A stretch of DNA of 64,000 nucleotides from Bosea sp. 29B (lineage in GTDB: Bacteria; Pseudomonadota; Alphaproteobacteria; Rhizobiales; Beijerinckiaceae). Positions within the stretch are counted from its first letter, which is position 1, and each line of letters starts with the position of its first letter. The position numbers and the translations under genes are program-made. Below are positions 22,154 to 63,516 of the stretch, piece by piece. The notes under the pieces are model-generated. The model saw only the letters and a list, made by a program, of their open reading frames with translations. It did no database searches and was not told the DNA's origin. The stretch spans positions 4,679,625 to 4,743,624 of the forward strand of contig NZ_LR733817.1 of the NCBI RefSeq assembly GCF_902506165.1. The letters are read 5' to 3'.

Positions 22154-22620
22154 GCTGTCTGGACTCGTCCTCGTCACGGCGCGTTTGCCGGGGCGGCCTT
22201 TCCCAAGGGCAGGAATAACCGGCACGAGCTAAGCAAAGGTTGGCGTGACCGAGGGATTTCTTCCCGTTGTAAACGAGGCATGAACGGGATCGCGCAGGTC
22301 GCAGATAGGCTGGTCGAAAAGCCGTTCCGATCACGCTGATTTTCGTAAATGTTGAACTATCATCGGCGGCCCTGGAACGAAACATGTCTTTGAAAATGCT
22401 TTGGCTGTGTAGTTAATTTTCGGCGAGCTGATTGATTGAATACTTGAATCAAATCGCCCTGAGTCTGTTGCCGAAATGTTAACTACGCCTCGGCAGGATG
22501 CGCGGTGGAATTCCAGCCGAGCCGTCGGCGCGTCCGGCCGTGGATGCGCCGTGCCGGGCCGGATCGAGGAGGCTTGTGGTGTCGGCTGCGTTCGAGGCGG
22601 GGAGACGGGAGGAGGCGCCG
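22154..22620. promoter_or_regulatory. Divergent control region of the exopolysaccharide locus
   Basis: This 467-bp gene-free stretch separates the leftward glycosyltransferase operon from the rightward Wzz/polymerase pair. Its middle (about 22330-22485) is clearly AT-richer than its surroundings. It contains a 21-bp palindrome TTGATTnAA-n3-TTnAATCAA at 22432-22452. Flanking it is a wider inverted pair, TAGTTAA (22410-22416) and TTAACTA (22479-22485). These look like regulator sites set between two promoters. No confident -35/-10 pair could be assigned. Confidence 0.6.
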
Positions 22621-47743: not shown

Positions 47744-49498
47744 TCACACCCCGAAGATCATCGTGCCGCGGCGCTTCATCACCAGGTAGAAGGCCGTCGC
47801 GATCGTGCTCATCAGCAGCGACCAGAGCAGGCCGAGCGCCGCGACTTCGCTGAGCTCGCCATTGACGGCGCGATCGAAGATCGCGACCGCGATGGTCTTG
47901 GTGTCGGGGCCGGAGAGGATGATCGCGGTCGAGAGGTCGCGTGCGGCGTTGAGGAAGATGAAGACCCAGCCGGCCATGATCGCTGGCAAGAGCAGCGGCA
48001 TTACGACCTTCAGCAGGATCTTGCCGGGCGAGGCACCGCAGACGCCGGCCGATTCCTCGAGTTCCTTATGGATCTGCAAGACGCCGCCATAGGTGTAGCG
48101 CATGCCGAAGGGCAGGAAGTGGATGACGAAGGCGATCACGACGATCGTCAACGTCGAATAGAGCGGGATCGGCGCGCGCAGCGCGACATCCATCATCGCG
48201 ACGCTGAGCACGATGCCGGGCAGGATCATCGGCAGCGTGATCAACTGGTCGGTGACGGTATGGAAGGCCTGGCGGCGCGCGACGAGCCAGCCGCAGACCA
48301 CCATCAGCGCCATGGTGATGCTCGCCGCGGCGGCGGCCGTGATCAGCGTGTTGACGATCAGCTCGAAATAGCCCTGGCTGCCGAGCACGATCCTGAAATT
48401 GTCGAGCGTCAGCGATTTGAACGCCGCGACGCGAACCGGCCGGACGAAGGGCGTCAGCGCGATCCAGAGCAGGGTCAGGATCGGCAGTACCAGCACGACG
48501 ATGCAATTGGCCCAGATCAGCCCGCCGCCGAGCCAGCGCAGCCGCCCGAGCGGCAGGGGGCGCGGGCGAAAGCCCTTGCCGGTCACCGTGGCGAAGCGCG
48601 AGGCGTTCAGCGACAGGCGGCTGTAGAGATACATCAGGCCGGCGACGAGCACGGTCAGCACGACCGAATAGGCGCTGGCCTGGCCGACCTTGGGCGGCAC
48701 CGCGGCGCGGATATCGTCATAGATGTCAGTGGTCAGCAGCTTGATCCCGGCCGAGGTGCCGACGAGCTTGGGTACGTCGAAGGCCTGCAGCGTCTTGATG
48801 AAGATGAACAGGCCCGTTGCCAGCGCGGCCGGGGCCGCCAGCGGGATCGAGACGCGCAGCACCATGGTGAGAATGCCGGCGCCGCTCATGCGCGCCGCTT
48901 CCTCCAGTTCGGCATTGGCGGTGCGGAAGCTCGCGGCGAAGAGCAGGAACGACATCGGCAGCCACCCCAGCGTCTCGATCGCGACCATGCCGGCGATCGA
49001 GTTGACGGTGAACAGGTTGCCGCCATTGCCGGTGAGGTTGCGGTAGAGCTCGTTGAACGGGCCGACCGGGCCGAGCAGGAAGAGCCAGGCCGGGACATAG
49101 ATGATCAAGGGTATGCCGAGCGACACCACCGTCATCAGATAGGCGAGGGAGCGGTGCGGCGCGTCGGTCCGCTCCACCACCCAGGCGAGCGAGGCACCGA
49201 AGAGAAGCGAGAACAGCGTCGATAGTGCTGCGAACTGGATCGAGTTCCAGCCGCTGGCGAGGATGCCCTTCTCGCTGGCGAGATGCGTGAAGTTGTCGAA
49301 GGTGAAGGCACCGTGCGAGCCGTCCGGGTTCATCACGAACAGGCTGTTCTGGATGAGCGTGACGACAGGCGGCAGCACCAGGCAGGCGATGACGAGCAGC
49401 ATCGCCTGCGCCAGCAGATTGGTCTGCGCCGGGCGTTTGGCCAGCCCGGCGCGGCGTTGCTGCGGCAGTGCCGCGGCAGCGTCGATGACTTCGGTCAT
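47744..49498 (-). CDS. ABC transporter permease, fused two-domain Fe3+/phosphonate type
   Basis: This 584-residue permease contains two complete membrane domains of about six helices each. The coupling loops are LEEAARMSGAGILTMVLRVS (about 215-235) and LEESAGVCGASPGKILLKVV (about 500-520). One chain therefore forms the whole pore, as in AfuB/FbpB/PhnV-like importers. It overlaps the binding-protein gene by four bases. No ATPase follows; the only candidate in the window is the LysR-box-linked ATPase at 63517. Confidence 0.92.
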   Translation of the reverse strand: MTEVIDAAAALPQQRRAGLAKRPAQTNLLAQAMLLVIACLVLPPVVTLIQNSLFVMNPDGSHGAFTFDNFTHLASEKGILASGWNSIQFAALSTLFSLLFGASLAWVVERTDAPHRSLAYLMTVVSLGIPLIIYVPAWLFLLGPVGPFNELYRNLTGNGGNLFTVNSIAGMVAIETLGWLPMSFLLFAASFRTANAELEEAARMSGAGILTMVLRVSIPLAAPAALATGLFIFIKTLQAFDVPKLVGTSAGIKLLTTDIYDDIRAAVPPKVGQASAYSVVLTVLVAGLMYLYSRLSLNASRFATVTGKGFRPRPLPLGRLRWLGGGLIWANCIVVLVLPILTLLWIALTPFVRPVRVAAFKSLTLDNFRIVLGSQGYFELIVNTLITAAAAASITMALMVVCGWLVARRQAFHTVTDQLITLPMILPGIVLSVAMMDVALRAPIPLYSTLTIVVIAFVIHFLPFGMRYTYGGVLQIHKELEESAGVCGASPGKILLKVVMPLLLPAIMAGWVFIFLNAARDLSTAIILSGPDTKTIAVAIFDRAVNGELSEVAALGLLWSLLMSTIATAFYLVMKRRGTMIFGV

Positions 49499-50544
49499 TT
49501 GAACAGCTCGTCGTAGATCTTCAGCCAGCCCGCGAGCGGCTCGCTCTCCTGCGAGGAGATCTCCGGTGCGAGCAGGGTCGAGGTGAAGTTGCCGGTCACC
49601 GGGCCGATCGAGGGATCCTTCGGCGGCACATCGGGATTGCCCGGCGGATAGCCGGCTTCGGCGATGATCTTCTGGCCGTCGTCGGAGAACATGAATTCGA
49701 GGAAGAGCTTGGCGGCATTGGGGTGCGGCGCGCCCTTGGCCAGCGCGATGACGCCGAGATTGGCCACGAGCGGCTCCATCTTGACCCAGGCGATCGGAGC
49801 TTCCTTGGCTCGGCTGATCACTGCGTGATGGTTATAGGTCATCAGGCCGATCGCGTATTGGCCCGAGATCACCTTGTCGAGGATGACGCGCTGGTTGCCG
49901 GGCTCGCGCACGATCTTCTGCTTCGAGAGCTCGCGCAGATAAGCCATGCCCTTGTCCTGGCCCATCACGGAGAGGACATTGCCGATGAAGCCGGCCGGTC
50001 CGGAAATGGCGCGGGTATCGGTCCAGACCATCTTGCCGCGCCATTTCGGGTCGAGCAGGTCGTCATAGGTCTTGGGCGCCTCGGCCGCCTTGACCAGGTC
50101 GGTATTGTAGGTCGTCGTCAGATACAGTGCGTAGATGCCGGAATAGAGCTGGCTCTGCGGCTTGAAGGTCGGCGCATATTTGGCGAGCGCATCGGGCACG
50201 AAGGGCTCGATCAGCCCGGCCTTGGTCAGCGGCGGGATCGAGGTTCCCGGTGAGTCGAACAGGTCGACCTCCATCTTGCCGGCCCGCGCCTGGCTGGTGA
50301 TCTTCAGCACCGTGTCGGAATCGCCGGCCGTCGCGTAGCGAACTTCGATGCCGTACTTGGCCTGGAACTTCTCCGCCAGCGGCCGTACCACTTGGCTGAC
50401 CACCATGCCGGTGTACCAGACGAGCTGGCGCTCGGCCTTGGCCTTGGCGATCAAATCGGCTGCAGGCTGGCTCTGGGCGAAGCCTGCGGTCGGCAACAGC
50501 GCGAGCGTGCTCGCCCCGGCAATGAAGCCGCGTCTGGTCTGCAT
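49495..50544 (-). CDS. ABC transporter substrate-binding protein (Fe3+/organic-anion type, SBP_bac_1-like)
   Basis: This 349-residue periplasmic protein has a twin-arginine-like leader (MQTRRGFIAGASTLALLP). The AfuA/FbpA-like core follows, with AKAERQLVWYTGMVVSQVV, VDLFDSPGTSIPPL, YNTDLVKAAEAPKTYDDLLD and FMFSDDGQKIIAEAGYPP. GGGAGGAAGG precedes the ATG at 50544. Proteins of this group bind iron, but also phosphonates, sugar phosphates and organic acids. Being in the CoA-catabolic regulon (LysR box at 50673) points to an organic acid. Confidence 0.9.
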   Translation of the reverse strand: MQTRRGFIAGASTLALLPTAGFAQSQPAADLIAKAKAERQLVWYTGMVVSQVVRPLAEKFQAKYGIEVRYATAGDSDTVLKITSQARAGKMEVDLFDSPGTSIPPLTKAGLIEPFVPDALAKYAPTFKPQSQLYSGIYALYLTTTYNTDLVKAAEAPKTYDDLLDPKWRGKMVWTDTRAISGPAGFIGNVLSVMGQDKGMAYLRELSKQKIVREPGNQRVILDKVISGQYAIGLMTYNHHAVISRAKEAPIAWVKMEPLVANLGVIALAKGAPHPNAAKLFLEFMFSDDGQKIIAEAGYPPGNPDVPPKDPSIGPVTGNFTSTLLAPEISSQESEPLAGWLKIYDELFK

Positions 50545-50672: not shown

Positions 50673-50713
50673 GGTCAAACGAGTAAACGAGACAGGCGTA
50701 TGAGGAATTCTCA
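50673..50713 (-). promoter_or_regulatory. LysR-type box A, upstream of the ABC transporter operon
   Basis: On the minus strand, TGAG-N5-CTCA (50713-50701) is followed after 12 bp by GTTTACTCGTTTGACC (50688-50673). The final TTGACC could serve as -35 for the binding-protein gene starting at 50544. The box overlaps the last codon of the hydrolase gene ending at 50711. It is the best palindrome of the five copies. Confidence 0.75.
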
Positions 50714-51514
50714 ATGGTCTCGGGGTTGACCATCCGCTGGCCCGGCATCCACGAAACCCGTTCGGTCGAAGAAATCCCGGAGTGTCGCTGCCACCAGTTC
50801 CGGCGTATCGATCGCCATGACATGGCCGGTCTCCAGGACCAGGAATTCCGCCCCCGCGATCTTGTTGGCGACGCCCTCGACATGCTCCGGCGGGCGCGCC
50901 GCATCGTGGCGCCCAGCGACGACGAGGGTCGGGCAGCGTATCGCGGCCAGATCGGCGTCGAGATCGAGCCCTGCCAGCATTCGCCAAGTCGCTGCCAGCG
51001 CAGCCGGATCTGCGGCGAGGCGCAGTTCCTCATAGCGTGAGAGCGGCCTGGAACCCTCGTCGGCGAATGCCTGGCGGATGCCGAGGCGTTCGATCGCCGC
51101 GATACGCTGCTCGGTCCGTGCCCGCTTCGCCTCGTCAAGCACGGTCGCCGGCGCGAGCAAGGCAAGCGCGGCGACGGCCTGCGGATGACGCGCGGCGAAG
51201 GCAGCGGCCACCGCCGCCCCGACGGCAGCGCCGGCGACGGCGACGGGCCCGGTGATGGCGAGCGCGGCGAGCAGGGCGGCAAGGTCATCGGCCGCCTGCG
51301 CGACGGTGTAGGGGCCGGGCGGCTTCTCCGACAGCCCGGCGCCGCGCTGGTCATAGCGCAGCACGCTGGCAAAGGGCGTAAGCAGCGGCACGACCGCGTC
51401 CCAGCTCTCCAGCATTCCGCCCATCTCATGCAGCAGCACGATTGTCGTGGGCGGCCCCGCCTTCAGCTCGTAGCGCAGTTGGATGCCGTTGGCCTCGATC
51501 CAGCGGTTCGGCAT
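50711..51514 (-). CDS. Alpha/beta-hydrolase-fold protein with Ala at the nucleophile position
   Basis: This 267-residue protein resembles 3-oxoadipate enol-lactonase-type hydrolases: VLLHEMGGMLESWD (oxyanion region, about 27-40), YDQRGAGLSEKPPG, VVAGRHDAARPPEHV (acid) and ETGHVMAIDTPE (His). The nucleophile elbow reads AGAAVGAA at 94-101, with Ala97 where Ser belongs. GGGAGGTG precedes the ATG at 51514. It is divergent from the thiolase operon with paired LysR boxes between. It may be a non-hydrolytic alpha/beta-fold enzyme such as a decarboxylase-like or C-C lyase member, or inactive. Confidence 0.82.
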   Translation of the reverse strand: MPNRWIEANGIQLRYELKAGPPTTIVLLHEMGGMLESWDAVVPLLTPFASVLRYDQRGAGLSEKPPGPYTVAQAADDLAALLAALAITGPVAVAGAAVGAAVAAAFAARHPQAVAALALLAPATVLDEAKRARTEQRIAAIERLGIRQAFADEGSRPLSRYEELRLAADPAALAATWRMLAGLDLDADLAAIRCPTLVVAGRHDAARPPEHVEGVANKIAGAEFLVLETGHVMAIDTPELVAATLRDFFDRTGFVDAGPADGQPRDH

Positions 51515-51558
51515 GAAGCACACCTCCCGCCGCGAGCCTTGGCGTTGTCTCGAGCCGG

Positions 51559-51599
51559 CGTCAAACGAGGGAAACTGAGCCGGGCTTGAGGAATGCTGC
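51559..51599 (-). promoter_or_regulatory. LysR-type box B, upstream of the alpha/beta-hydrolase gene
   Basis: Reading the minus strand, a weakened GCAGCATTCCTCA (51599-51587) is followed by 12 bp and TTTCCCTCGTTTGACG (51574-51559), 45 bp before the hydrolase start. One half of the TGAG-N5-CTCA palindrome is degraded. It stands back to back with box C, with 14 bp between. Confidence 0.65.
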
Positions 51600-51613
51600 G
51601 GCAACGGCTCTTG

Positions 51614-51654
51614 TGAGCATTGCTCAATCGCTCTTTCGGTTAAGTCGTTTGACC
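51614..51654 (+). promoter_or_regulatory. LysR-type box C, upstream of the thiolase operon
   Basis: TGAGCATTGCTCA (51614-51626) is followed by exactly 12 bp and GTTAAGTCGTTTGACC (51639-51654), facing the thiolase gene at 51738. TTGACC at the end is a possible -35. Confidence 0.75.
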
Positions 51655-51737
51655 CTTCGCCGGCGTTGCGAAAAACCTCCGAGGTCTCGACGGCGATCCG
51701 GCCGGGGCTCTCGCGCAAGTCAGTATGAGGTTTCCGC

Positions 51738-52898
51738 ATGACGGGTTCGCTGTCCGGGGTCGCTTCGGTGATCGGCATCGGCCAGAGCGATTGGGTCGGC
51801 GACCACCAGCGGGTTCGGGCCGGCGAGCGGCCGCATGATTCCTATGGCTATGGCGCGCAGGCCTTCCTCTCGGCGCTGGTCGATTCCGGCATTGCGCGCG
51901 ACGAGATCGACGGGCTGATCGTCGGGCCGACCACGGCCTATGAGCGTGTCGGCGAACTGCTCGGCCTCAATGTCCGCTGGGGCGGGCAGGCCGATGCGAT
52001 GACGGCGGTGATGGAGGCCTGCATGGCGATCCGTTCCGGCCTCGCCTCGGTCGTCGCGCTGGTCTACGGCAACGACCAGCGCTCGGCGCAGGTCAATTAT
52101 GGCGGCTCGGATGCGCAGGGCGGTGGCGCCTTCCTCGCCTATGTCTACCACGCGCCCTGGGGCTTCACCTCGCAGGGCGCGCTCTATGCGATGATGGCGC
52201 GCCGCTACATGCATGAGCGCGGCCTGACCGAAGCCGAGCTTGGCGAGGTCGCGGTGGCGCAGCGCCTCGCCGCCTCGCGCAATCCGCGCGCGCTAATGCG
52301 CAAGCCGATAAGCGTCGAGGATTATCTCGCCTCGCCCTTCATCTGCGAGCCGCTGCATCTCTTCGATTATTGCCTGATCAATGATGGCGGCGTCGCACTG
52401 ATCATTGCCGAGGCCGGCAAGGCCAAGCGAATTGGCCGGGCTCCGGTCGCGATTAAGGGCGTCGGCCGCTATGACCTCAACCGCGGCGCCACCAGCCTCG
52501 AGCCCCGCCTGCTCGATTATTATTTGCCGGCGCAGCAGGCGGTCGCCGCCCAGGTCTTCGAGATGGCCTCGCTCGGTCCCAAGGACATGGACGCGCTGCA
52601 GATTTACGACAGCTTCTCGCTGCATATCCCGCTCGCGCTCGAAGGCTATGGCTATTGCCCAGTCGGCGGCGCCGGCCAGTTCATGCGCGAGACCGGCATC
52701 TCGCTGGCCAAGGGTCTGCCGGTGAATACCAGCGGCGGGCACCTCTCCGAAAGCTACATGCAGGGCTGGAACCACCAGATCGAAGCGGTCCGGCAGGTCC
52801 GCGGCGAGGCCGGAGACCATCAGGTCGAGGGCTGCCGCCATGTCCATTACAGCTCCGACGTCGCCGGCAAGGCGATCTCGATCATCTACGGAGCCTGA
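51738..52898 (+). CDS. Thiolase-fold protein, Ltp/SCP2-aldolase type (no nucleophilic Cys)
   Basis: This 386-residue thiolase-superfamily protein ends in the lipid-transfer-protein pattern LPVNTSGGHLSESYMQG and EAVRQVRGEAG. By alignment to AIxxG after the active-site helix, the biosynthetic-thiolase Cys position is Gln84 (GGQADAMTAVMEA). LQIYDSFSLHIPL carries a conserved Tyr. With the adjacent DUF35 protein this resembles Ltp2-ChsH2 retro-aldolases of steroid side-chain degradation. It likely cleaves a beta-hydroxy-acyl-CoA carbon bond rather than performing thiolysis. It is the first gene of a five-gene operon behind LysR box C. Confidence 0.85.
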   Translation: MTGSLSGVASVIGIGQSDWVGDHQRVRAGERPHDSYGYGAQAFLSALVDSGIARDEIDGLIVGPTTAYERVGELLGLNVRWGGQADAMTAVMEACMAIRSGLASVVALVYGNDQRSAQVNYGGSDAQGGGAFLAYVYHAPWGFTSQGALYAMMARRYMHERGLTEAELGEVAVAQRLAASRNPRALMRKPISVEDYLASPFICEPLHLFDYCLINDGGVALIIAEAGKAKRIGRAPVAIKGVGRYDLNRGATSLEPRLLDYYLPAQQAVAAQVFEMASLGPKDMDALQIYDSFSLHIPLALEGYGYCPVGGAGQFMRETGISLAKGLPVNTSGGHLSESYMQGWNHQIEAVRQVRGEAGDHQVEGCRHVHYSSDVAGKAISIIYGA

Positions 52899-52901
52899 GC
52901 C

Positions 52902-53300
52902 ATGGCGAACAGTCAGCCCGTCGTCACGCTCTACGACGCCCCGATGTGGGAGAGCTTGTCCCGCGAGCGGATGCAGCTCCAGTCCTGCGGCCATTGCGGC
53001 ACACTGCGCTACCCGCCCGGGCCGATCTGCACGGCCTGCACCAGCCTCGATTATCGCTGGACCGATCTTTCGGGCGGCGGCGAGATCCTCTCCTGGGTGC
53101 GCTTCCACCGCGCCTATTTCGACGATCATCCGCCGCCCTACAACGCCGTCGCGATCAGGCTCGACGAAGGGCCGATCGTCGTCTCCAACCTGATCGGCCC
53201 GGAGCCGGAGGGCGAGTGGATCGGCCGGCGCGTCAAGCTCGCCTATCACCGTCGTCTTGATCGCACGCAGCACGCCTTCATGCTGTCTCAGCAACCCTGA
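52902..53300 (+). CDS. DUF35 Zn-ribbon/OB-fold protein, partner of the thiolase-like protein
   Basis: This 132-residue protein has an N-terminal rubredoxin-like zinc ribbon (Cys29, Cys32, Cys43, Cys46: CGHCGTL and ICTAC) and a C-terminal OB fold that in this family binds CoA ester substrates or stabilises the thiolase-like partner. It starts 3 bp after the upstream gene. The same two-gene pair recurs at 58154-59715. Confidence 0.9.
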   Translation: MANSQPVVTLYDAPMWESLSRERMQLQSCGHCGTLRYPPGPICTACTSLDYRWTDLSGGGEILSWVRFHRAYFDDHPPPYNAVAIRLDEGPIVVSNLIGPEPEGEWIGRRVKLAYHRRLDRTQHAFMLSQQP

Positions 53301-53326
53301 CGGCGCGCGGTCGCCTGGAGAAGATC

Positions 53327-54058
53327 ATGTTCGAGAAAGACGTTTCCATCGTCACCCGGCACGGCCGGATGCCGGCCTTCGCCGTCAGGCCGGAGGGGCC
53401 GGGACCCTACCCGGTCGTCATCCTCTATATGGACGCGCCCGGCATCCGCGAGGAGTTGCGCCATATGGCGCGCCGGATCGCGACCGCCGGCTATTACTGC
53501 CTGCTGCCCGATCTCTATTACCGGATCGGCACCGTGCGTTTCGACCTGCCGCGGCGTGATGAGCGCATGTCGGCCGTGGTCGGCGCCTGCATGCGCTCGA
53601 TCGACAATGAGCGCACCACCGACGATACCGCCGGCATGCTCGCCTTCCTCGATGGCGAAGCGGAAGCGAATGCCCAGAAGGTCTCCTGCCTCGGCTTCTG
53701 CATGAGCGGGCGCTATGTCGTCGCGGCCGCGGCCAAGTTCGGCCCGCGCATCGCCTCGGCCGCCTCGCTCTATGGCGTCGGCCTTGTCACCGAGGATGAG
53801 GGCTCGCCGCACAAGCTGGTCGCGAAGGTGCCGGGCGAGCTCTATTTCGCCTTCGCCGAGACCGACGGCGCTGCCCCGCCGGCGACGATCGCCGCGCTGC
53901 AGGAGGCGCTCGCCGCGACCAGCGTGACGCATGATGTCGACGTCTTCCCGAACAGCGAGCACGGCTACTGCTTTACCGCTGGCCGCTGCTACCAGCCGGA
54001 GGCGGCCGAGGCGACCTGGACCAAGCTCTTCGCGCTCTGGAAGCGGACGCTGGCGTAA
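53327..54058 (+). CDS. Dienelactone hydrolase-family protein
   Basis: This 243-residue alpha/beta-hydrolase has a Cys125 nucleophile in SCLGFCMSGRYV (GxCxxG elbow), an Asp near AETDGAAPP and His in NSEHGYCF, the Cys-His-Asp triad of dienelactone hydrolases. It probably opens a lactone or hydrolyses an ester intermediate in the cytoplasm. Position in the thiolase operon links it to a ring-cleavage-like or lactone step. Confidence 0.9.
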   Translation: MFEKDVSIVTRHGRMPAFAVRPEGPGPYPVVILYMDAPGIREELRHMARRIATAGYYCLLPDLYYRIGTVRFDLPRRDERMSAVVGACMRSIDNERTTDDTAGMLAFLDGEAEANAQKVSCLGFCMSGRYVVAAAAKFGPRIASAASLYGVGLVTEDEGSPHKLVAKVPGELYFAFAETDGAAPPATIAALQEALAATSVTHDVDVFPNSEHGYCFTAGRCYQPEAAEATWTKLFALWKRTLA

Positions 54059-54103
54059 GCTCATGGGCCCGATAGCGCGCAACATGCACGATCGGACGCA
54101 GCC

Positions 54104-55126
54104 ATGACGGCGCGGCGCCCCTATGCCGGCCTCACCGTTGCCGAGGTGATCTCAGACGCGGCTGACGATGCGCTCGTGCTCGCCGCCGGCATGACGGGAC
54201 GCATCCTCGCCGATCTCGGCGCTGAGGTGATCTGCCGGCAGGGGCGCGAACGCGGCTTCGATGATAGTACCGAGCTGTTCCTGTCGCGCGGCAAGACGAG
54301 GTCGAACGAGAGTGTGGGCGAACTGCTCGCTCGCGCCGGTGTTGCACTCGTCGATGGCGCTGTGCTGCTGGAACGTGGGCGGGCGGGCCTGCCTACCGTC
54401 ACTGCGGTGCTCAGCTTATTCGGCGGAGCCCTCGCTGAATGCGACAGGCCGGCCAGCGCCTTCACCGCCGCGGCTTCGGCCGGACTGCTGGCGATGGTGG
54501 GCGATCCCCAGCGCGAGCCCTTGCGCCTCGGCGGCCACCAGGAGGCCTTCGCCCTCGGTCTCTGCGCCTATGGCGGCGTGGCGGCGGCGCTGGCTTCGGC
54601 GCGTCCAAAAGGCGTTCCCGTCACGATCCGGGCCAGCCTGCTCGAGACCCTCGTCTGGCTGAACTGGAAGGCCGTGCCGCTGGAGGGCTACGATGTCTTG
54701 CCGGGCCGCACCGGCGCTGCCGCGGAATGGCAGGTGCTGCGCTGCGCCGACGGCTACGCTGTGCTGGTCTATCAGGAGCCGGACTGGCCGCGGCTGAAGG
54801 CGGCACTGGCGGAGCCCGCGCTGGGCGAGCCGCGCTTTTCGACACGCGCCAGCCGGCTCGCCTATCTGGTTGAGCTCGCCGCGATCATCGAGCGGCGCTT
54901 CCTGACATTGACCCGCCGGGAGATCCACGGCTTGGCCCGGCAGCACCGCCTGCCGCTCGGGCCAGTCTGGAGCCCGACCGAGGCTTTCGACGAACCGCAC
55001 AACCAGGCGCGCGGCCTGTTCGAGCCACTTGGTGTCGATCCTGGAGTGCAGGCACCGCGCCTGCCGCTGGCCTGGCTCGATCAAGCGGCGGCTCGACAAG
55101 CTGAGATTACGGTGGGAGCAGCCTGA
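54104..55126 (+). CDS. Class III (CaiB/BaiF) CoA-transferase homologue, degenerate
   Basis: This 340-residue protein aligns with CaiB-type CoA-transferases (ILADLGAEVICRQGRER near the N-terminus; ALGEPRFSTRASRLAYLVEL near the C-terminus). It lacks the D-VENFRPG segment, and the catalytic Asp is not present: around residue 145 the helix start reads LGGHQEAFALGLCAYGG. It overlaps the next CoA-transferase by one base. It may act as a non-catalytic partner or have lost activity. Confidence 0.75.
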   Translation: MTARRPYAGLTVAEVISDAADDALVLAAGMTGRILADLGAEVICRQGRERGFDDSTELFLSRGKTRSNESVGELLARAGVALVDGAVLLERGRAGLPTVTAVLSLFGGALAECDRPASAFTAAASAGLLAMVGDPQREPLRLGGHQEAFALGLCAYGGVAAALASARPKGVPVTIRASLLETLVWLNWKAVPLEGYDVLPGRTGAAAEWQVLRCADGYAVLVYQEPDWPRLKAALAEPALGEPRFSTRASRLAYLVELAAIIERRFLTLTRREIHGLARQHRLPLGPVWSPTEAFDEPHNQARGLFEPLGVDPGVQAPRLPLAWLDQAAARQAEITVGAA

Positions 55127-56280
55127 TGAAGCTGCTGGAAGGCTGCCGCGTCCTCGATCTCGGCATCATCACCGCGGGCGCTGCGACCGCCGCTTTGCTC
55201 GCCGATTTCGGCGCCGAGGTGATCAAGGTGGAATCGCCGACCTATCGCGATCCGTTCCGCGCCTGGAGCGCGCAGGACGAGCCGGGCGCGATGCCGCCAC
55301 TGTTCCGCGCCACCAACCGCAACAAGCGCGCGATCAGCATCGACCTGAAGCGGCCGGAAGGGCAGGCGATCCTGCTGCGCCTGGTCCGTCGTGCCGATGT
55401 CGTGGTCGAGAATTTTCGCCGTGGCGTGATGGAAGGGCTCGGACTGAGCTTCGCCAGGCTGCGCGAGGCCAATCCCGACATCATCCTCGCCTCTATCTCG
55501 AGCCAGGGCGAGACCGGTCCCGATGCCGGCCATGTCTCCTATGGCTCGACGCTGGAGGCGCTGAGCGGCCTCGCCTGGGTGACCGGCTATGAGGGCGGCA
55601 AGCCGGAAGTTTCCGGCCGCGACGTCAACTATCCCGACCAGATCGTCGCGCTGTTCGCGGCCGGGGCGATCGCGACCGCGCTGCGCTCGGTGCGCAAGGG
55701 CGAGGGCGGCAGCCATCTCGACCTGTCGCAGCGCGATCTCGCCGCCTTCATGATTGGCGATCGCTTTGCCGCTGCCTCGCAGGGCGAGGCCGTCACTCGC
55801 CAGGGCAATGCCCAGCCGCAATATCCGCTGCAGGACTGTTTCCTCGCCGCCGATGGCATCTGGGTCGCGCTTTCAGTCTCGGCCCCGGCGTTGCCGCTGC
55901 TGTTGGATGTGCTCGCGGCTGGTGATCTCGATCGCCTGGATGCCCTGCGGACCGCCGTCACTGCTGCGATCAAGGCGCGGCCGGCCCGGGAGGCGGTGAG
56001 CTTCTTCGTCGGACTCGGCGTGCCCGCCGCTATCGTCAATGACGGCAACGGCATGATGATCGATTGGGGCGAGGCCTGGCAGCACGCGCTGCAGCGCGAC
56101 GAGCAAGGCCTGATCGTCAAGGGCTTCCCGCTCCAGGTCGACGAGGCGTCGCTCGCGATCGCACGTCCGGCTCCGCAAGTTGGCGCCGAGACCTATGCCG
56201 TCCTTGCCGGGATCGCCGGCTATAGCCGCAGCGAGATCGCCGACTTCGCCGCGGCGGGGATCGTCGAGACCGCGCGCTGA
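55126..56280 (+). CDS. Class III (CaiB/BaiF) CoA-transferase
   Basis: This 384-residue enzyme has the family features: LLADFGAEVIKVESPTYRDP (about 25-44), NRNKRAISIDLKRPEGQ, VVVENFRRGVMEGLGLS, and the catalytic Asp171 in VNYPDQIVALFAAGAIATAL. It moves CoA between carboxylates, activating the pathway acid without ATP. The start overlaps the degenerate paralogue. It is the last gene of the box C operon. Confidence 0.93.
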   Translation: MKLLEGCRVLDLGIITAGAATAALLADFGAEVIKVESPTYRDPFRAWSAQDEPGAMPPLFRATNRNKRAISIDLKRPEGQAILLRLVRRADVVVENFRRGVMEGLGLSFARLREANPDIILASISSQGETGPDAGHVSYGSTLEALSGLAWVTGYEGGKPEVSGRDVNYPDQIVALFAAGAIATALRSVRKGEGGSHLDLSQRDLAAFMIGDRFAAASQGEAVTRQGNAQPQYPLQDCFLAADGIWVALSVSAPALPLLLDVLAAGDLDRLDALRTAVTAAIKARPAREAVSFFVGLGVPAAIVNDGNGMMIDWGEAWQHALQRDEQGLIVKGFPLQVDEASLAIARPAPQVGAETYAVLAGIAGYSRSEIADFAAAGIVETAR

Positions 56281-56299
56281 GGCGAAGGGTGCCGGCCGC

Positions 56300-57253
56300 T
56301 CAGGCCGGCACCAGGCTCTCGCCGCCAGGCAGCCGCATATGGCGGACGGTCGCTTCGTATTCGATCGATTGCCCGAGGATCCAGTCGCGGAATTCGGCGA
56401 CGCCCGGCTTCTTCACCGCATGCTCGACATAGGTGAGGTAGTAGGCAATGCCGTTGTCGTGGATGAAGTCGAACGGTGCGACCAGCCGACCTGCATTCAG
56501 GTCCTCCAGCACCAGCGCCATCTGCCCGATCGCCATGCCGATGCCTTCCATCGCCGATTGATAGGCGAGGGTCGAGCTTTCGAAATAGAGGCCGCGGTCG
56601 CTCTCGATCTGCTCGCCGCCGGCGGCATCGAGCCATTCGCGCCAGTCAGTCGGGCGGACGGTGGAGTGCAGCAGGGTCTGCTCGACGAGGATGTCGATGC
56701 CAATCTCGGGGCCGAGGCGCTCCAGGAAGGCCGGGCTGCATACCGGGATCAGGGCGCTGCCGGCGAGGCGGTGCGAGACCAGCCCCGGCCAATCGCCGTC
56801 GCCCTGCTGGATCGCGATGTCGATATCACCCATCGAGAGCTGGTTGATCGGCCGCGGCGAGAGTGAGGTCGCAAGCTGGATCTCGCGCTTCGGATAGAGG
56901 CGATGGAACAGCGGCAGGCGCGGCACGAGCCAGCGCAAGGTGAAGGTCATCGGGCAGTGCACCCGCAGCGAGCTTTCCCCTTGCGCGCCCATTAGCCGCT
57001 TGGTGGCGCGCTCCATCTGGTCGAAGGCGGTGCCGAGCGCCGCGACATAGTCGTTCGCCTCGGCGGAGATGCGCAGATCCCGGCCGGTGCGCTCGAACAG
57101 CTCGACCCCGAGCACGTCCTCCAGCAGCTTGATCTGCCGGCTGATCGCGCCGGGCGTCACCGAGAGCTCGTCGGCGGCCTTGGTGAAGCTGACATGCCGG
57201 CCGGCCGCCTCGAAGGCGCGCAACGCGTTCAGCGGGGGCAGGCGACGCAGCAT
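56300..57253 (-). CDS. LysR-family regulator, likely master regulator of the CoA-catabolic region
   Basis: This 317-residue protein has an N-terminal winged helix-turn-helix (VSFTKAADELSVTPGAISRQ, about 20-39; LFERTGRDLRI) and a LysR substrate-binding domain of the GcvA-like group. It lies between two operons of the region and is divergent from the GST operon, with a LysR box in the shared gap (57266-57307). Five copies of that box in the window make it the obvious candidate activator. The effector is probably a pathway acid or CoA ester. Confidence 0.92.
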   Translation of the reverse strand: MLRRLPPLNALRAFEAAGRHVSFTKAADELSVTPGAISRQIKLLEDVLGVELFERTGRDLRISAEANDYVAALGTAFDQMERATKRLMGAQGESSLRVHCPMTFTLRWLVPRLPLFHRLYPKREIQLATSLSPRPINQLSMGDIDIAIQQGDGDWPGLVSHRLAGSALIPVCSPAFLERLGPEIGIDILVEQTLLHSTVRPTDWREWLDAAGGEQIESDRGLYFESSTLAYQSAMEGIGMAIGQMALVLEDLNAGRLVAPFDFIHDNGIAYYLTYVEHAVKKPGVAEFRDWILGQSIEYEATVRHMRLPGGESLVPA

Positions 57254-57265
57254 ATCTCACACGCT

Positions 57266-57307
57266 TGATGATTCCTCACAGGTGGCCTCCCTTTTAGTCG
57301 ATTGACG
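57266..57307 (+). promoter_or_regulatory. LysR-type box E, between LysR and the GST operon
   Basis: TGATGATTCCTCA (57266-57278), 13 bp, then TTTTAGTCGATTGACG (57292-57307) facing the GST gene, with TTGACG as possible -35. It is the most diverged copy and starts 13 bp from the LysR ATG, so binding should also repress LysR. The rest of the 57254-57491 gap holds a TGGATCA direct repeat near 57350 and nothing else clear. Confidence 0.6.
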
Positions 57308-57491
57308 CTTTTGCGCTTTTCGCGTTGCTTGTGGGTCGCGGGCGATGATGGATCAAATCGCTTGGATCATCAACAGGATGAAGCATGTTTTGCCTCGGTT
57401 TCGAGCCGATTTCGATGCAGGTGCGAGCGCCGCGGCTAGATTCCGCGGCGGTTCCGTCTCATGTGATTTTTCCTGAGCCTGAGGCGGCCAA

Positions 57492-58157
57492 ATGATGAGG
57501 CTTTTCTGGTCGCCACGCTCGCCTTTCGTTCGCAAGGTCCTGGTCGTCGTCCATGAGGTCGGCCTCGACGATGCGATTGAGCGCGTGCCGATGGTCATCC
57601 TCTCTACTCAGCCGAACGACACGCTGCTCGCGCTCAATCCGCTCGGCCAGATTCCGACGCTGGTCACCGAGGGCGGCGAGGCAATCTACGATTCCGTGGC
57701 GATCTGCCATTATCTCGACGTCGTGCGCGGCGATGGCCGGTTGCATCCGGCAGTCCCCGAGGCACGGACGGCCGCGCTGCGGCGCCAGGCGCTCGGCGAC
57801 GGGCTCTCCTGGTTGTTGCTCAACTGGCTGGGCGAGCGCTCGCGTCGGCAGGGCGAGCAATCGGCGATGCGCATCGCCGCCGTGCACAAGAAGCTACCGC
57901 ACATCTTCCGGGTGCTCGAGGCTGAGGCCGCCGCGGCGGATGCCGCGACCTTCGATGTCGGCCATGCCGCGATCGTCGCGGCGCTCGGCTATCTCGATTT
58001 CCGCTTCGCGCCGGATTTCCTCTGGCATGAGCGCTATCCGCGCCTGGCGCAATGGTGGCAGGCGGCGCAGCAGCGCCCCTCCGTCGCCGCGACGGTGCAT
58101 TACGACGAACTCGCGACGGCCGGCTCCGCCCTGTCGCGCCAGAAGGGCAGGGCATGA
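57492..58157 (+). CDS. Glutathione S-transferase-like protein
   Basis: This 221-residue protein has an N-terminal thioredoxin fold (MMRLFWSPRSPFVRK, Ser near residue 10 as likely thiolate stabiliser; NPLGQIPTLVTEGGEAIYDS for the gamma-glutamyl site) and a C-terminal helical domain. Glutathione transferases in catabolic operons often isomerise or dehalogenate intermediates. It overlaps the second thiolase-like gene by four bases (ATGA). Confidence 0.9.
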   Translation: MMRLFWSPRSPFVRKVLVVVHEVGLDDAIERVPMVILSTQPNDTLLALNPLGQIPTLVTEGGEAIYDSVAICHYLDVVRGDGRLHPAVPEARTAALRRQALGDGLSWLLLNWLGERSRRQGEQSAMRIAAVHKKLPHIFRVLEAEAAAADAATFDVGHAAIVAALGYLDFRFAPDFLWHERYPRLAQWWQAAQQRPSVAATVHYDELATAGSALSRQKGRA

Positions 58158-59323
58158 GTGTCAACGGACAGGCCTATATCGTCGGCGCCTATGAGCATCC
58201 GCTGCGCAAGGCGCCGGACAAGTCGCTGGCGCAATTGCATGCCGAGGTCGCACTCGGCGCGCTCGCCGATGCCGGGCTGAGCAAGGACGATGTCGACGGC
58301 TATTTCTGCGGCGGCGACGTGCCGGGCACCGGCCCGTTCTCGATGGTCGACTATCTCAATCTCAAGGTCCGCCACGCCGATTCCACCAATATCGGCGGCG
58401 CCTCCTACATCCTGCACGTCAACCATGCGGCGCAGGCGATTGCCGCCGGGAAATGCGATGTGGCGCTGGTCACGCTCGCTGGCCGGCCGCGCAGCGAGGG
58501 CGTTCCCAAGGGCGGGCTGAAGCGGGCCGACAGCCCGGTCCAGCCGGACTATGCCTGGGAAACGCCCTTCGGCATGACGATCCTCAACGTCTACGCCATG
58601 TGTGCGATGCGCCACATGCACGAATTCGGCACGACCCCCGAGCAACTGGCCTGGGTCAAGGTCGCGGCCTCGCATCACGCGCAGCACAATCCCAACGCCA
58701 TGCTGCGCGATCTCGTCACCGTCGACGACGTGCTGAACTCGACGCTGGTCGCCGACCCCCTGCACAAGCTCGATTGCTGCATCGTCTCGGATGGCGGCGG
58801 CGCCGTCATCGTCACCCGGCCCGAGATCGCCCGCCAACTGAAGCGCCCGCTGGTCAAGATCCGCGGCGCCGGCGAGGCGGTGAAGCACACCGCTGGCGGC
58901 GCGATCGATCTGACCTATTCGGCCGGCCGTTTCAGCGGCGCTGCGGCCTTCGCCGAGGCCGGATTGACGCCGGCCGACGTCAAATATGCCTCGGTCTATG
59001 ACAGCTTCACCATCACCGTGATCGTGCAGCTCGAGGATCTCGGCTTCTGTGCCAAGGGCGAGGGCGGCCGCTTCGTCGCCGACGGCAACCTGATCGCCGG
59101 TGTCGGCCGCTTGCCGGTCAACACCGATGGCGGAGGCTTGTGCAACAACCATCCGTTCAATCGCGGCGGCATCACCAAGATCATCGAGGCCGTCCGGCAA
59201 TTGCGCGGCGAGGCGCATCCGGCCGTCCAGGTCGCCAATTGCGACATCGCGCTGGCGCACGGCACCGGCGGCATGCTTGGCACCCGGCATGGCGGCGCCA
59301 CCCTCATCATGGAGCGGGAGTGA
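58154..59323 (+). CDS. Second thiolase-fold protein, Ltp/SCP2-aldolase type (no nucleophilic Cys)
   Basis: This 389-residue thiolase-superfamily protein starts at ATG 58154 overlapping the GST stop. The nucleophile region reads TNIGGASYILHVNHAAQAI, with Gly where the Cys of classic thiolases would be. ASVYDSFTITVIVQLEDLGF and LPVNTDGGGLCNNHPFNRGG match the lipid-transfer/aldolase subgroup. It is followed 5 bp later by its DUF35 partner. Two such pairs in one regulon suggest two successive chain-shortening steps. Confidence 0.87.
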   Translation: MSVNGQAYIVGAYEHPLRKAPDKSLAQLHAEVALGALADAGLSKDDVDGYFCGGDVPGTGPFSMVDYLNLKVRHADSTNIGGASYILHVNHAAQAIAAGKCDVALVTLAGRPRSEGVPKGGLKRADSPVQPDYAWETPFGMTILNVYAMCAMRHMHEFGTTPEQLAWVKVAASHHAQHNPNAMLRDLVTVDDVLNSTLVADPLHKLDCCIVSDGGGAVIVTRPEIARQLKRPLVKIRGAGEAVKHTAGGAIDLTYSAGRFSGAAAFAEAGLTPADVKYASVYDSFTITVIVQLEDLGFCAKGEGGRFVADGNLIAGVGRLPVNTDGGGLCNNHPFNRGGITKIIEAVRQLRGEAHPAVQVANCDIALAHGTGGMLGTRHGGATLIMERE

Positions 59324-59328
59324 GGCCC

Positions 59329-59715
59329 ATGTCGGTTTTGCGTGAGGCGCTGGATCACCAGCCCGAGACCAGGGCGTTCTGGAGCGAGCTTGCCGAGGGC
59401 CGCTTCAAGCTGCGCCACTGCCGTGCCTGCGAGCGGGCGCACTGGTATCCGCGGGCGATCTGCCCGTATTGCGCCAGCCCGGAGACGGAATGGCGGGCGG
59501 CGAGCGGGCGGGGCACGATCTACTCCTACAGCATCGCCCGCACGGCGGCCGAGCCCTTCGCCATCGCCTATGTCACCCTCGCGGAGGGGCCGACCATGAT
59601 GACCAATATCGTCGGCAGCGACTTCGGGGAGATCGCGATCGGCAGGCCCGTCGAGATCGCCTTCGGCCATGAGGCTGAAGACGGCATCACCTTGCCGGTG
59701 TTCAGGCTCGTCTGA
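59329..59715 (+). CDS. Second DUF35 Zn-ribbon/OB-fold protein
   Basis: This 128-residue protein has zinc-ribbon cysteines at 31, 34, 45 and 48 (HCRACERAHWYPRAICPYC) and an OB fold (GTIYSYSIARTAAEP). The ATG at 59329 is the start that matches the family N-terminus. It should form a complex with the thiolase-like protein encoded just upstream. Confidence 0.9.
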   Translation: MSVLREALDHQPETRAFWSELAEGRFKLRHCRACERAHWYPRAICPYCASPETEWRAASGRGTIYSYSIARTAAEPFAIAYVTLAEGPTMMTNIVGSDFGEIAIGRPVEIAFGHEAEDGITLPVFRLV

Positions 59716-59795
59716 GGCGCGCCTACGCCACACCGATTGGCGCCGCGTGCTCGATCACGCCGCGCGCGACCATAACGAGATCAGAGGAAACGACC

Positions 59796-61160
59796 ATGCC
59801 GACAGCCCTGTCACGCGCGCTTGCCGGTTTCGCCTCCGGCCTGCGGTATGAGCACTTGCCGGCCCGGGCGATTGAGGCTGTCCGCATCGGCATGGCCGAT
59901 ACGGTCGGCGTCATGCTCTCCGGCATCGACATGCCGGTCTCCCGTCATGTCCTCGCCAGCCTCGGCACGCGCGGCGTCAAGAATGAGGCCCGCATCCAGC
60001 TCGGTACCGAGACAGCCTCGGTCGCCGATGCGACGCTGGTCAACGCTGTGACGACCAGCAGCGTCGTCTTCGACGACGTCGCCTTCGCCGGCTGCCATAC
60101 CAGCACCGTGCTGATGCCGGCGCTGCTCGCCGAGGGCGAGCGGATCGGCGCCAGCGGCAGGCGGGTCATCCAGGCCTATGCCGCCGGCTACGAAGCCTGG
60201 GCGCGGCTCGCCGAGCGCGATCCCGACAGCTATTCGAGCAAGGGCTGGCACGCCACCGCATGCTTCGGTCCATTGGCCGTTGCCCTCGCCCTCGCTAATC
60301 TGCGCGGCTTCGACGAGGCGACGACGCTGCGCGCACTCGGCATCGCCGCCTCGATGTCGGGCGGCATCACCGCGAGCTTCGACACCGATGTCGGTCCGTT
60401 CCAGATCGGCCGTGGCGCCGCCGGTGGCGTGCTGGCGGTGCAGCTCGCCGAGGCCGGCATGTCGGCGCCGGCCGATGCGCTGGAACGCTCGGGGCGCGGC
60501 ATGCTGGTCGCGCTCTCGCCCAAGGGCGCCGTCGATCTGGAGAGCCCGCTCGATGATCTTGGCAGTGCCTGGCGCCTCGAAAGCATCGGCATCAACGTCA
60601 AGCAGTACCCGTTCGGCAATATCGCGCAGCGAGCCGTGGACGGCGCGCTCGACCTTGCGAACGCGCATGACGTCAAGCCTCAGCAGGTCATGCGGGTCGA
60701 ATTGCTGATCAGCGACGCCCAATACGCGGTGATCTCGAAATCGCCCTCGGTGCTGCATTTCGTGCCGTCGCACAGCGTGCCGCTGGCGGTCGTTGCGGCG
60801 CTGTTCGAGAAGCGCGTCACCTTCGATGCGCTGGAGGAGAGCTTCCACGGCCGCCCGGACGTCCAGGCGCTCCTGCAGAAGGTCGAGACCGTCGCCGACA
60901 GCCGCATCCCGGCTGACACCCAGCCCAATCTCGGCTTCAGCGGCGGCGTCCGGCTGCATCTCGCCGATGGCCGCGTGCTCGAAAGCCCCAGTGTCGATTA
61001 CGCCCGCGGTCACTGGACGCGGCCGATGAGCGAGGCCGAACTCTGGCAGAAATTCTGGTCCTGCAGCAGCAAGCAGCTCGCCCAGCCGCAGGCGGAAAAG
61101 CTCTTCGCCAGCCTGATCAGGCTCGACGAGGTCGCGAATGTCGGAACGCTCAATCGTTGA
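59796..61160 (+). CDS. MmgE/PrpD-family protein
   Basis: This 454-residue protein has the MmgE/PrpD fold: DTVGVMLSGIDMPVSRHVL near residue 30, a GWHATACFGPLAVALALAN segment near 150-170, and the second domain with KQYPFGNIAQRAVDGALDLA. Family members are 2-methylcitrate dehydratase, cis-aconitate decarboxylase and iminodisuccinate epimerase, all acting on polycarboxylates. The best role is a (de)hydratase or decarboxylase on an acidic intermediate. It is the last gene of the GST operon. Confidence 0.9.
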   Translation: MPTALSRALAGFASGLRYEHLPARAIEAVRIGMADTVGVMLSGIDMPVSRHVLASLGTRGVKNEARIQLGTETASVADATLVNAVTTSSVVFDDVAFAGCHTSTVLMPALLAEGERIGASGRRVIQAYAAGYEAWARLAERDPDSYSSKGWHATACFGPLAVALALANLRGFDEATTLRALGIAASMSGGITASFDTDVGPFQIGRGAAGGVLAVQLAEAGMSAPADALERSGRGMLVALSPKGAVDLESPLDDLGSAWRLESIGINVKQYPFGNIAQRAVDGALDLANAHDVKPQQVMRVELLISDAQYAVISKSPSVLHFVPSHSVPLAVVAALFEKRVTFDALEESFHGRPDVQALLQKVETVADSRIPADTQPNLGFSGGVRLHLADGRVLESPSVDYARGHWTRPMSEAELWQKFWSCSSKQLAQPQAEKLFASLIRLDEVANVGTLNR

Positions 61161-61211
61161 GTGATCGCGATGATGAGCGGCCGCAAAGAGCGGCCGTATT
61201 GAGCTTTCGAT

Positions 61212-61252
61212 TGAGGAAAGCTCATTCGACTGCGCGGTTAACTCGTTTGACC
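61212..61252 (+). promoter_or_regulatory. LysR-type box D, upstream of the enoyl-CoA hydratase operon
   Basis: TGAGGAAAGCTCA (61212-61224), exactly 12 bp, then GTTAACTCGTTTGACC (61237-61252), 60 bp before the enoyl-CoA hydratase ATG. It is one of the four clear copies with a 12-bp gap. Confidence 0.75.
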
Positions 61253-61311
61253 GGTGATGGCGCCGGTCCTACCTCGACTGCAGTCAGCGTTTGATCCGGC
61301 GGAGAGTCTGG

Positions 61312-62103
61312 ATGGTCCCCGACACCCCATCGCTACAGTTCAGCCAGGCCGGTCATGTCGCCACCATCGTGCTCGACCGGCAGCCGGCGCTGAACGCGAT
61401 CGACCCGGAGACGGGAGCGGCGCTCGTCACCTGCTTCGAGCATATCGCACGCGATGACGGCATCCGGGCCGTGGTCCTGACCGGAGCGGGCGAGCGGGCT
61501 TTCAGCGCTGGCGCCGATCTCAAGAAGACCGCCGAGGTCTCCGGCCCCTATGCGGCGCAGGCTTTCGCCGGCGGCGGCGATAGCAGCTTCGCCGCGGCGC
61601 TCGATTGCGAGAAGCCGTTGATCGCCGCGATCAATGGCTTGGCTCTCGGGGGTGGGCTGGAGTTCGCCTTGGCTTGCGACATCAGGCTGGCGGCGCCGCA
61701 GGCGCGCTTCGGCCTGCCGGAGGTCAAGGTCGGCACGATCCCGGGAGCCGGCGGCACGCAGCGTCTGCCGCGCAGCATCGGGCAGAGCGATGCGATGCTG
61801 ATGCTGCTCTCGGGCGACATGATCGACGCACCGGAGGCGCTGCGCCTTGGGCTGATCAGCCGGATTGTTCCTGCGCCGGATCTGCTGGCGGAAGCGCAAG
61901 CGCTTGCCGCCAGGATCGCGGCGAATGCGCCGCTCTCGGTCCGGGCGGTCAAGCGCCTCGTCCGCAGCGGCGGCGAACTGCCATTGCCCGAGGCGCTGCG
62001 GTTGGAGCGGCTGGTCTGGGGCATGCTGCGCGATACGCAGGACAGGGCTGAAGGCCGGCGCGCCTTCGCCGAGAAACGCCCGCCCGTCTTCACCGGGCGC
62101 TGA
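61312..62103 (+). CDS. Enoyl-CoA hydratase/isomerase-family protein
   Basis: This 263-residue crotonase-fold enzyme starts at ATG 61312 after GGAGAG; a TTG seven codons earlier is less likely. It has the oxyanion-hole segments RAFSAGADLKKT and NGLALGGGLEFALACD and the catalytic-region Glu in GLPEVKVGTIPGAGGTQRLP. It should hydrate a 2-enoyl-CoA to the 3-hydroxyacyl-CoA that a following aldolase or thiolase-like enzyme could cleave. It heads a rightward operon under LysR box D. Confidence 0.93.
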   Translation: MVPDTPSLQFSQAGHVATIVLDRQPALNAIDPETGAALVTCFEHIARDDGIRAVVLTGAGERAFSAGADLKKTAEVSGPYAAQAFAGGGDSSFAAALDCEKPLIAAINGLALGGGLEFALACDIRLAAPQARFGLPEVKVGTIPGAGGTQRLPRSIGQSDAMLMLLSGDMIDAPEALRLGLISRIVPAPDLLAEAQALAARIAANAPLSVRAVKRLVRSGGELPLPEALRLERLVWGMLRDTQDRAEGRRAFAEKRPPVFTGR

Positions 62104-62122
62104 GACTGGAAACGAGAGGCCT

Positions 62123-62833
62123 ATGATCGACAAGCAGGTTCCCGATATGGCCGCGGCGCTGGCTGATATAGGCGACGGCGCCTCCGTCCTCGTGGGCGGC
62201 TTCGGCGCGGTCGGCCAGCCCAATGCACTGATCGACGCGCTGGCGCTGAGCGGCGTGCGCAATCTGACGGTGATCGCCAATAATGCCGGCTTCGAACCGC
62301 AGACCGGGCTCGGCAAGCTGATCGGCAGCGGCGCGGTGTCTAAGTTGATCTGTAGCTTCCCGCGCGGCTCGACCGCCTTCGATGCGCGCTATGAGAAGGG
62401 CGAGATCGAGCTCGAGGTTGTGCCGCAGGGCACGCTGGCCGAGCGGATCAGGGCAGCCGGCGCCGGGGTCGGCGCCTTCTACACCCCGACCGGCGCGGGC
62501 ACGCGCCTCGCCGAGGGCAAGGAGACCCGCAACATCGGCGGGCGCGATCATGTCCTCGAATACGCGCTTGGCGCCGATGTCGCGCTGATCCAGGCCTATA
62601 CCGCCGATCGCTGGGGCAACCTGACCTACAAGGGCAGCGGCCGGAACTTCAATCCGATCATGGCGATGGCGGGCAGGCTCACCATTGTCCAGGTCGCCAG
62701 CATCGCCCCGCTCGGCGAACTCGATCCCAACATCATTGTCACCCCCGGCATCTTCGTGAACCGCGTGCTGACGGTCGCAGGCGGCGATCCGCCCTTGGCG
62801 ACGACATCAGCCAGCAAGGAGGGCGCCCGATGA
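62123..62833 (+). CDS. 3-oxoacid/succinyl-CoA-type CoA-transferase subunit A
   Basis: This 236-residue class I CoA-transferase alpha subunit has VLVGGFGAVGQPNALIDAL (GGF-G-GxP motif, about 29-47) and NLTVIANNAGFE. The C-terminus has NIGGRDHVLEYALGADVALI and DRWGNLTYKG. With subunit B it transfers CoA from succinyl-CoA or acetyl-CoA to a 3-oxo acid. The ATG at 62123 is preceded by GAGAGG. It overlaps subunit B by four bases. Confidence 0.92.
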   Translation: MIDKQVPDMAAALADIGDGASVLVGGFGAVGQPNALIDALALSGVRNLTVIANNAGFEPQTGLGKLIGSGAVSKLICSFPRGSTAFDARYEKGEIELEVVPQGTLAERIRAAGAGVGAFYTPTGAGTRLAEGKETRNIGGRDHVLEYALGADVALIQAYTADRWGNLTYKGSGRNFNPIMAMAGRLTIVQVASIAPLGELDPNIIVTPGIFVNRVLTVAGGDPPLATTSASKEGAR

Positions 62834-63492: not shown

Positions 63493-63516
63493 ATGCGTGT
63501 CGCGGGAGGACAGACA

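Follow-up and report, generated by a model that had tools for sequence, protein, structure and literature searches.

A LysR-type regulator and its five predicted operators

We analyzed a 64,000-nucleotide stretch of the Bosea sp. 29B genome (the window), in which five short sites precede a transporter unit, a hydrolase gene and three further operons. These sites are very probably the operators of a LysR-type regulator of the GcvA subfamily, which is encoded among them on the minus strand (56300..57253). The protein matched the NCBIfam GcvA model NF008352 with 298.7 bits (cut-off, 288) and contained the Pfam domains HTH_1 and LysR_substrate. The computed results comprised the motif, its specificity in the genome, its conservation, its co-occurrence with the regulator gene and a layout that was similar in part of the subfamily. 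A first-pass annotation of this DNA had already assigned a regulatory role to the gene, and the assignment found support in our sequence comparisons, namely the scan with a held-out model (R1), the conservation, the co-occurrence and the layout shared with 24 of 108 loci.

All five sites were found where the first-pass annotation had placed them. Three of them are exact matches to TGAG-N5-CTCA-N12-[GC]TTWASTCGTTTGAC, namely predicted operators 1 (50674..50713, minus strand, preceding the transporter unit), 3 (51614..51653, plus strand, preceding the thiolase operon) and 5 (61212..61251, plus strand, preceding the enoyl-CoA hydratase operon). Predicted operator 2 (51560..51599, minus strand, preceding the hydrolase gene) has a degenerate left half and reads GCAG-N5-CTCA, and predicted operator 4 (57266..57306, plus strand), in the divergent region between lysR and the GST operon, reads TGAT-N5-CTCA. 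The uniformity first ascribed to the five sites was thus overstated, as TGAG-N5-CTCA is exact only in sites 1, 3 and 5. As had been described, the two boxes are 12 bp apart in four copies and 13 bp apart in site 4; with its TGAT half and longer gap, site 4 is a good variant of the consensus. Box 2 reads GTTTACTCGTTTGAC, TTTCCCTCGTTTGAC, GTTAAGTCGTTTGAC, TTTTAGTCGATTGAC and GTTAACTCGTTTGAC in sites 1 to 5, respectively, and forms a clear dyad, GTTAA-N5-TTGAC, in sites 3 and 5 only. The T-N11-A rule for LysR sites was obeyed by box 1 in four of the five sites and by the T and A of box 2 in all five; the exception was box 1 of site 2, which begins with G.

Each copy faces the start of a transcription unit (transporter, hydrolase, thiolase, GST and enoyl-CoA hydratase). 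The proposed division into five units was retained. The sites had also been called intergenic, which is not strictly true of site 1 because it shares positions 50711-50713 with the hydrolase gene, whose stop codon they form. Measured from where TTGAC ends, the start codon lay at a distance of 130 bp for the solute-binding protein (SBP) gene, 46 bp for the hydrolase gene, 85 bp for the thiolase operon and 186 bp for the GST operon. The palindrome of site 4 lies upstream of lysR, with its centre 19 bp from the start codon.

Specificity of the sites in the genome

In the window, the consensus with up to three mismatches had three matches, compared with 0 for every one of 100 shuffles. When the window was scanned with the consensus, the five sites scored 23, 23, 23, 20 and 18 of 23, and the best unrelated place scored 16. 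Across the whole genome (6,334,746 bases; 6.33 Mb), the fixed-gap pattern with up to three mismatches occurred at three places, which were the exact sites 1, 3 and 5, and the reversed control gave 0.

The R1 model, which uses sequence only, was built from 16 aligned sites outside the window that were taken from related clusters; the five window sites were left out on purpose, as were two sites with a 13-bp gap from genome G013. Only part of the first-look candidates was scored in each R1 search (150 of 337 in the window's own genome, at most 98 per genome in a 61-genome survey, 15 per genome in a 397-genome survey and at most 150 per genome in Mesorhizobium loti and Nitratireductor soli), so the R1 site counts given below are lower bounds. 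At E ≤ 10, the search of the genome returned four matches, all of which lay in the cluster: site 3 (40.1 bits), site 5 (35.1 bits), site 1 (30.0 bits) and site 4 (23.0 bits). A simple matrix from the same 16 outside sites scored sites 1 to 5 at 42.9, 13.5, 54.2, 39.5 and 48.2, respectively (site 4 after one gap base was dropped), the highest background score being 0.44 among 97,920 positions (window 1-49000, both strands). Whether the motif is equally common elsewhere had been raised in the first-pass annotation, and both the genome pattern scan and the R1 scan revealed that it is not. A chance origin of the sites was rejected on the basis of the shuffles, these two scans and the matrix background.

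Five similar copies within 11 kb could also have arisen as a dispersed DNA repeat. However, an alignment of 23 sites, including the five window sites and leaving out those of loci L067 and L047, revealed that the copies differ in their spacers and flanks and keep the operator positions; moreover, the fixed-gap pattern had no other match in 6.33 Mb, and we regard a repeat as hardly conceivable.

Conservation in related clusters and co-occurrence with lysR

Four related clusters were compared with the window, and their LysR proteins were 67% (N. soli, L043), 66% (M. loti LU, L044), 62% (same-genus genome G036) and 57-59% (same-genus genome G015) identical to the window protein. In all four clusters, sites scoring at least 17 preceded homologous operons, though the gene order was rearranged. 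In particular, a site was present before the first thiolase in four of four clusters and before the enoyl-CoA hydratase gene in four of four, and three (G036, L043 and L044) had a site before a GST or second-thiolase operon divergent from lysR. Site 4 lies between lysR and its divergent target, and the same placement was found in those three clusters; in G015 the target is the enoyl-CoA hydratase gene, which adjoins lysR, is divergent from it and has its own site. The SBP gene was preceded by a site in L043 and L044, and also in genome G026. No SBP match was found on the G036 contig, and the G015 stretch contained one SBP of 29% identity, without a site.

The two R1 surveys, which were run with stricter filters, revealed how sites and regulator are distributed. 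Matches at E ≤ 0.01 were present in 5 of 61 genomes, the window's own (G000) included: four in G000, three in G036, two in G015, and one each in G013 and G026. A LysR protein at E ≤ 1e-100 was found in three of the 61, and these were G000, G036 and G015, with four, three and two sites; the LysR of G013 was 44% identical. Among 397 genomes of the order, two had LysR at E ≤ 1e-75, carrying 4 and 11 sites, and three of the other 395 had one weak match each (16.7 to 24.3 bits). Among these 397, several sites occurred only in the two genomes that have a close ortholog of the regulator. When plasmids were searched with the LysR protein, one record was returned, with 44% identity.

Layout shared with the GcvA subfamily

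The layout was compared across a set of 109 related lysR loci, to which one search contributed the best 80 of 563. In 26 of the 109 loci, compared with 2.8 expected, the best match to a matrix from the window's five sites lay no more than 200 bp upstream of lysR. The region of the lysR start (160 bases around and upstream of it, read away from lysR) was available for 108 of these loci, as one lysR lay near a contig end. CGTTTG faced away from lysR in 39 of the 108 and was in the other orientation in 2. A palindrome together with CGTTTG was present in 24 of 108 loci compared with 6 of 17,896 control windows, with the reservation that the palindrome pattern was loose (T[GT]A[GA]-N5-[CT]T[CA]A) and that some loci are close relatives; the offset was 20 bases in 20 of these 24. 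The lysR genes compared (L005-L033 and L043-L122) are of the GcvA subfamily and come from Alpha- and Gammaproteobacteria, and in these 24 loci the palindrome is followed by CGTTTG 18-20 bases on.

The palindromes of the 24 loci were TGAG/CTCA in seven and TTAG-N5-CTAA in seven. In the recognition helix, the window's protein has the residues SRQ; nine of the 24 loci have TTAG as left half, and their proteins have SHQ, and those of the TGAG loci are mixed. TTAG-N5-CTAA forms the core of the GcvA repeat ATTAG-n5-CTAAT, published copies of which are centred at -65 and -43 (PMC5002191). The CTAAT half-site was not present in the window's five sites, and CTCA was present in all five. The match to GcvA is one of layout. 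Like the Escherichia coli system (gcvA-gcvB, gcvTHP), the window's regulator falls in the GcvA subfamily above its cut-off, and the two systems share an odd palindrome with a 5-bp centre and a divergent regulator gene; if TTGAC is the -35 and the weak -10 described below is real, they would also share a first repeat near -65 and a second element adjoining the -35 (PMC5002191). They differ in the palindrome itself (TGAG-N5-CTCA rather than ATTAG-n5-CTAAT), in the TCGTTTGAC conserved here, possibly in the register of the second element, and in the targets, which are five catabolic units here and glycine cleavage and gcvB in E. coli.

Promoter geometry and proposed mechanism

The end of box 2 had been proposed as a -35 hexamer. 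TTGAC is plausible in this role, and the assignment depends on a weak -10: 12 of the 23 aligned sites have A at position 20 after TTGAC, where a -10 at 17-bp spacing would have it. The palindrome is centred at about -64, provided that TTGAC is the -35 and this weak -10 is real. The block might instead be an alternative-sigma or plain strong promoter element with no regulator site, as the TTGAC end has a fixed place and each copy is directed at a gene start. This explanation is extremely unlikely, however, since the palindrome, some 31 bp upstream of TTGAC, is strongly conserved, no clear -10 consensus was found in the 23 sites, and neither the pattern scan nor the R1 scan (150 of 337 candidates scored) had matches elsewhere in the genome.

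In the favoured reading, with the sites as operators of the window's LysR, one dimer would hold the strong palindrome TGAG-N5-CTCA and a second dimer would occupy the GTTWASTCGTTTGAC block, which is less regular and extends into the -35. We infer binding, activation, a coinducer, a substrate and autoregulation as parts of this mechanism. Upon binding of the coinducer, which is probably a pathway intermediate, the tetramer would contact RNA polymerase and activate the five units, which comprise uptake by the ABC transporter, hydrolases, CoA-transferases, two thiolase/OB-fold pairs and a hydratase, and would form a catabolic CoA-ester pathway. Site 4, with its palindrome centred so close to the lysR start codon, may also serve to repress lysR.

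Observations at odds with the operator assignment

Several observations weigh against the assignment of all five sites to this LysR. Site 2 was not among the R1 matches in the genome at E ≤ 10; in the window search it scored 8.8 bits (E 0.16), which resembles the half-palindrome matches in the window with filters off. Matrices built from the window's five sites had been used to find the 16 training sites, so the training and window sets depend on each other in part; the absence of further matches in 6.33 Mb is unaffected by how the training sites were found. The sites of the related genomes are likewise not independent of each other. Two loci with LysR proteins of 42-44% identity (L047 and L067) share many genes with the window and have poor sites, with best matrix scores of 18.6 and 22.4. 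The palindrome and CGTTTG pattern was composed after the matrix survey of the lysR loci, and the combined element was absent from 84 of the 108 GcvA-type loci. To these we add the lack of a clear -10 consensus and genome G026, in which one strong site and transporter genes are present and the best LysR match, at 39%, is no close ortholog. The G026 locus (L129; G026:C18:6689) encodes an SBP and a permease piece that are 95% and 88% identical to those of the window. Its site is nearly identical as well, a hydrolase was matched in part, and the locus is probably a remnant of the cluster.

The strong G026 site would also suit a different regulator that is encoded elsewhere, with the neighbouring LysR as a bystander, and the LysR operators of the window are themselves predicted ones. 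Against this, the genomes with several sites coincide with those having the LysR ortholog, 24 of 108 other GcvA-type lysR loci show a comparable arrangement in the region of their own promoter, and both boxes fit T-N11-A except for box 1 of site 2. We consider a different regulator very unlikely.

As for site 2, only the four better sites might work, site 2 being a chance match or a dead copy and the hydrolase gene being driven otherwise; the loss of the TGAG half and a score comparable to half-site matches are in line with this. In N. soli and M. loti LU, however, degenerate sites before the PcaD-like hydrolase gene (L043:15762+ and L044:15705+) share CAGTTTC-N2-TC-N2-TTGAC with site 2. Because these counterparts scored 17.6 and 19.9 with the matrix trained without the window, and site 2 scored 13.5, all against the background maximum of 0.44, site 2 is probably a genuine, weaker subtype. 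Mere noise was rated less likely once the counterparts had been scored, and we now regard a non-functional site 2 as unlikely.

Gene units and the predicted pathway

The transporter unit on the minus strand consists of an ABC transporter permease gene (47744..49498; Pfam BPD_transp_1) and the SBP gene (49495..50544; from 50583 in the family scan, which is 13 residues longer). The SBP matched 2-aminoethylphosphonate-type models, all below their cut-offs. The alpha/beta hydrolase gene (50711..51514, minus strand; from 51493 in the scan, 7 residues shorter) is PcaD-like, with 145.2 bits against a cut-off of 255.85. On the plus strand, the thiolase operon (51738..56280) encodes a thiolase/lipid-transfer-like protein, a ChsH2-type OB-fold/zinc ribbon protein, a member of the dienelactone hydrolase family and two CaiB-type CoA-transferases. 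The GST operon (57492..61160, plus strand) encodes GST, a second thiolase, a second OB-fold protein and an MmgE/PrpD protein, and the enoyl-CoA hydratase operon (61291..63492, plus strand) encodes the hydratase (start at 61291, TTG, or 61312, ATG) and CoA-transferase subunits A and B. Directly after it, from window position 63493 on, lies an open reading frame (ORF) that reads as ABC-ATPase-like (L042:118-1299).

Because these units encode a transporter, hydrolases, CoA-transferases, thiolase/OB-fold pairs and a hydratase, they suggest that an organic acid is taken up and broken down by way of CoA esters. The thiolase gene adjoins that of a ChsH2-type OB-fold protein, and two CaiB-family genes are present, as in what we take to be the comparable ChsH2/Ltp2 and BbsAB systems with their CaiB CoA-transferases. 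The match to the BbsB model (94.6 bits) was far below its cut-off of 750, which sets the window apart from BbsAB.

Relation to known regulons

Reconstruction of LysR regulons from such motifs is an established kind of result, as a comparative-genomics study illustrates (PMC6449761). The regulons of aromatic catabolism described there, of CatR, BenM, ClcR, AphT and a new CatR-like factor, resemble the present one in the LysR-type regulator, the T-N11-A odd palindrome, the divergent regulator gene, the combination of catabolic and transporter genes and the comparative-genomics reconstruction. They differ in the LysR subfamily, motif and enzymes, and belong to Betaproteobacteria. No publication on the motif, the cluster or the link to cofactor F420 described below was found in the open-licence literature, which was searched with narrow terms and leaves most subscription journals outside. 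We conclude that the window holds a new, well-supported example of a familiar kind of regulation. It maps, in testable form, the predicted operators of an uncharacterised pathway of CoA-ester catabolism and provides a consensus for one branch of the GcvA subfamily in Alphaproteobacteria; in addition, tracing which genes carry the site across genomes offers a route to the substrate of the pathway.

Further sites in M. loti and N. soli and a possible link to F420

In M. loti LU, R1 gave 13 matches at E ≤ 1, of which 7 were outside the training set. The latter included distal sites before two SBP homologs (33.6 and 30.8 bits; L142 and L157) and before an alpha/beta hydrolase gene (24.8 bits; L168), where a GST gene lies immediately upstream of the site. 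Further sites preceded genes for a porin (19.0 bits), another PcaD-like hydrolase (18.7 bits) and MmgE (17.0 bits) and an unannotated ORF (19.5 bits). The top-scoring site (40.7 bits; L162:17613-17659), a member of the training set, was first found by the window's matrix at 32.0. Directly behind it, cofG, cofH, cofD, cofC/E, an LLM oxidoreductase gene and npdG follow in one direction (L162:11089-17521, minus strand), apparently as a single operon. In N. soli, a training-set site (37.1 bits; L043:2243-2289) precedes the gene of an F420-type LLM oxidoreductase (L164:13268-14257) that is 73% identical to the M. loti enzyme.

Among eight genomes with the cluster or parts of it, four had cofD. The N. 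soli contig with cofD (C53) had no operator match among those listed, which lay on C1 and C44. The window's genome gave no match for cofG, cofD or the LLM oxidoreductase (E ≤ 1e-30 for the oxidoreductase). We tentatively propose, rating it slightly below even, that in some Rhizobiales the synthesis and use of cofactor F420 have come under the control of this LysR regulon. If so, the pathway would have an F420-dependent step induced by the same substrate signal, and the window's genome, in which these markers were not found, would use another enzyme or degrade a simpler substrate. A real link in these two related genera would tie F420 to a specific catabolic regulon.

Other genes in the window

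Elsewhere in the window, we found a gene of the aromatic amino acid lyase family (32027-33481, minus strand; PF00221, 312.5 bits) and two long plus-strand ORFs of 676 and 827 aa (22540-24567 and 29539-32019) that matched no Pfam family at 1e-10. At positions 15594-20930 there are genes for glycosyltransferases and polysaccharide synthesis.

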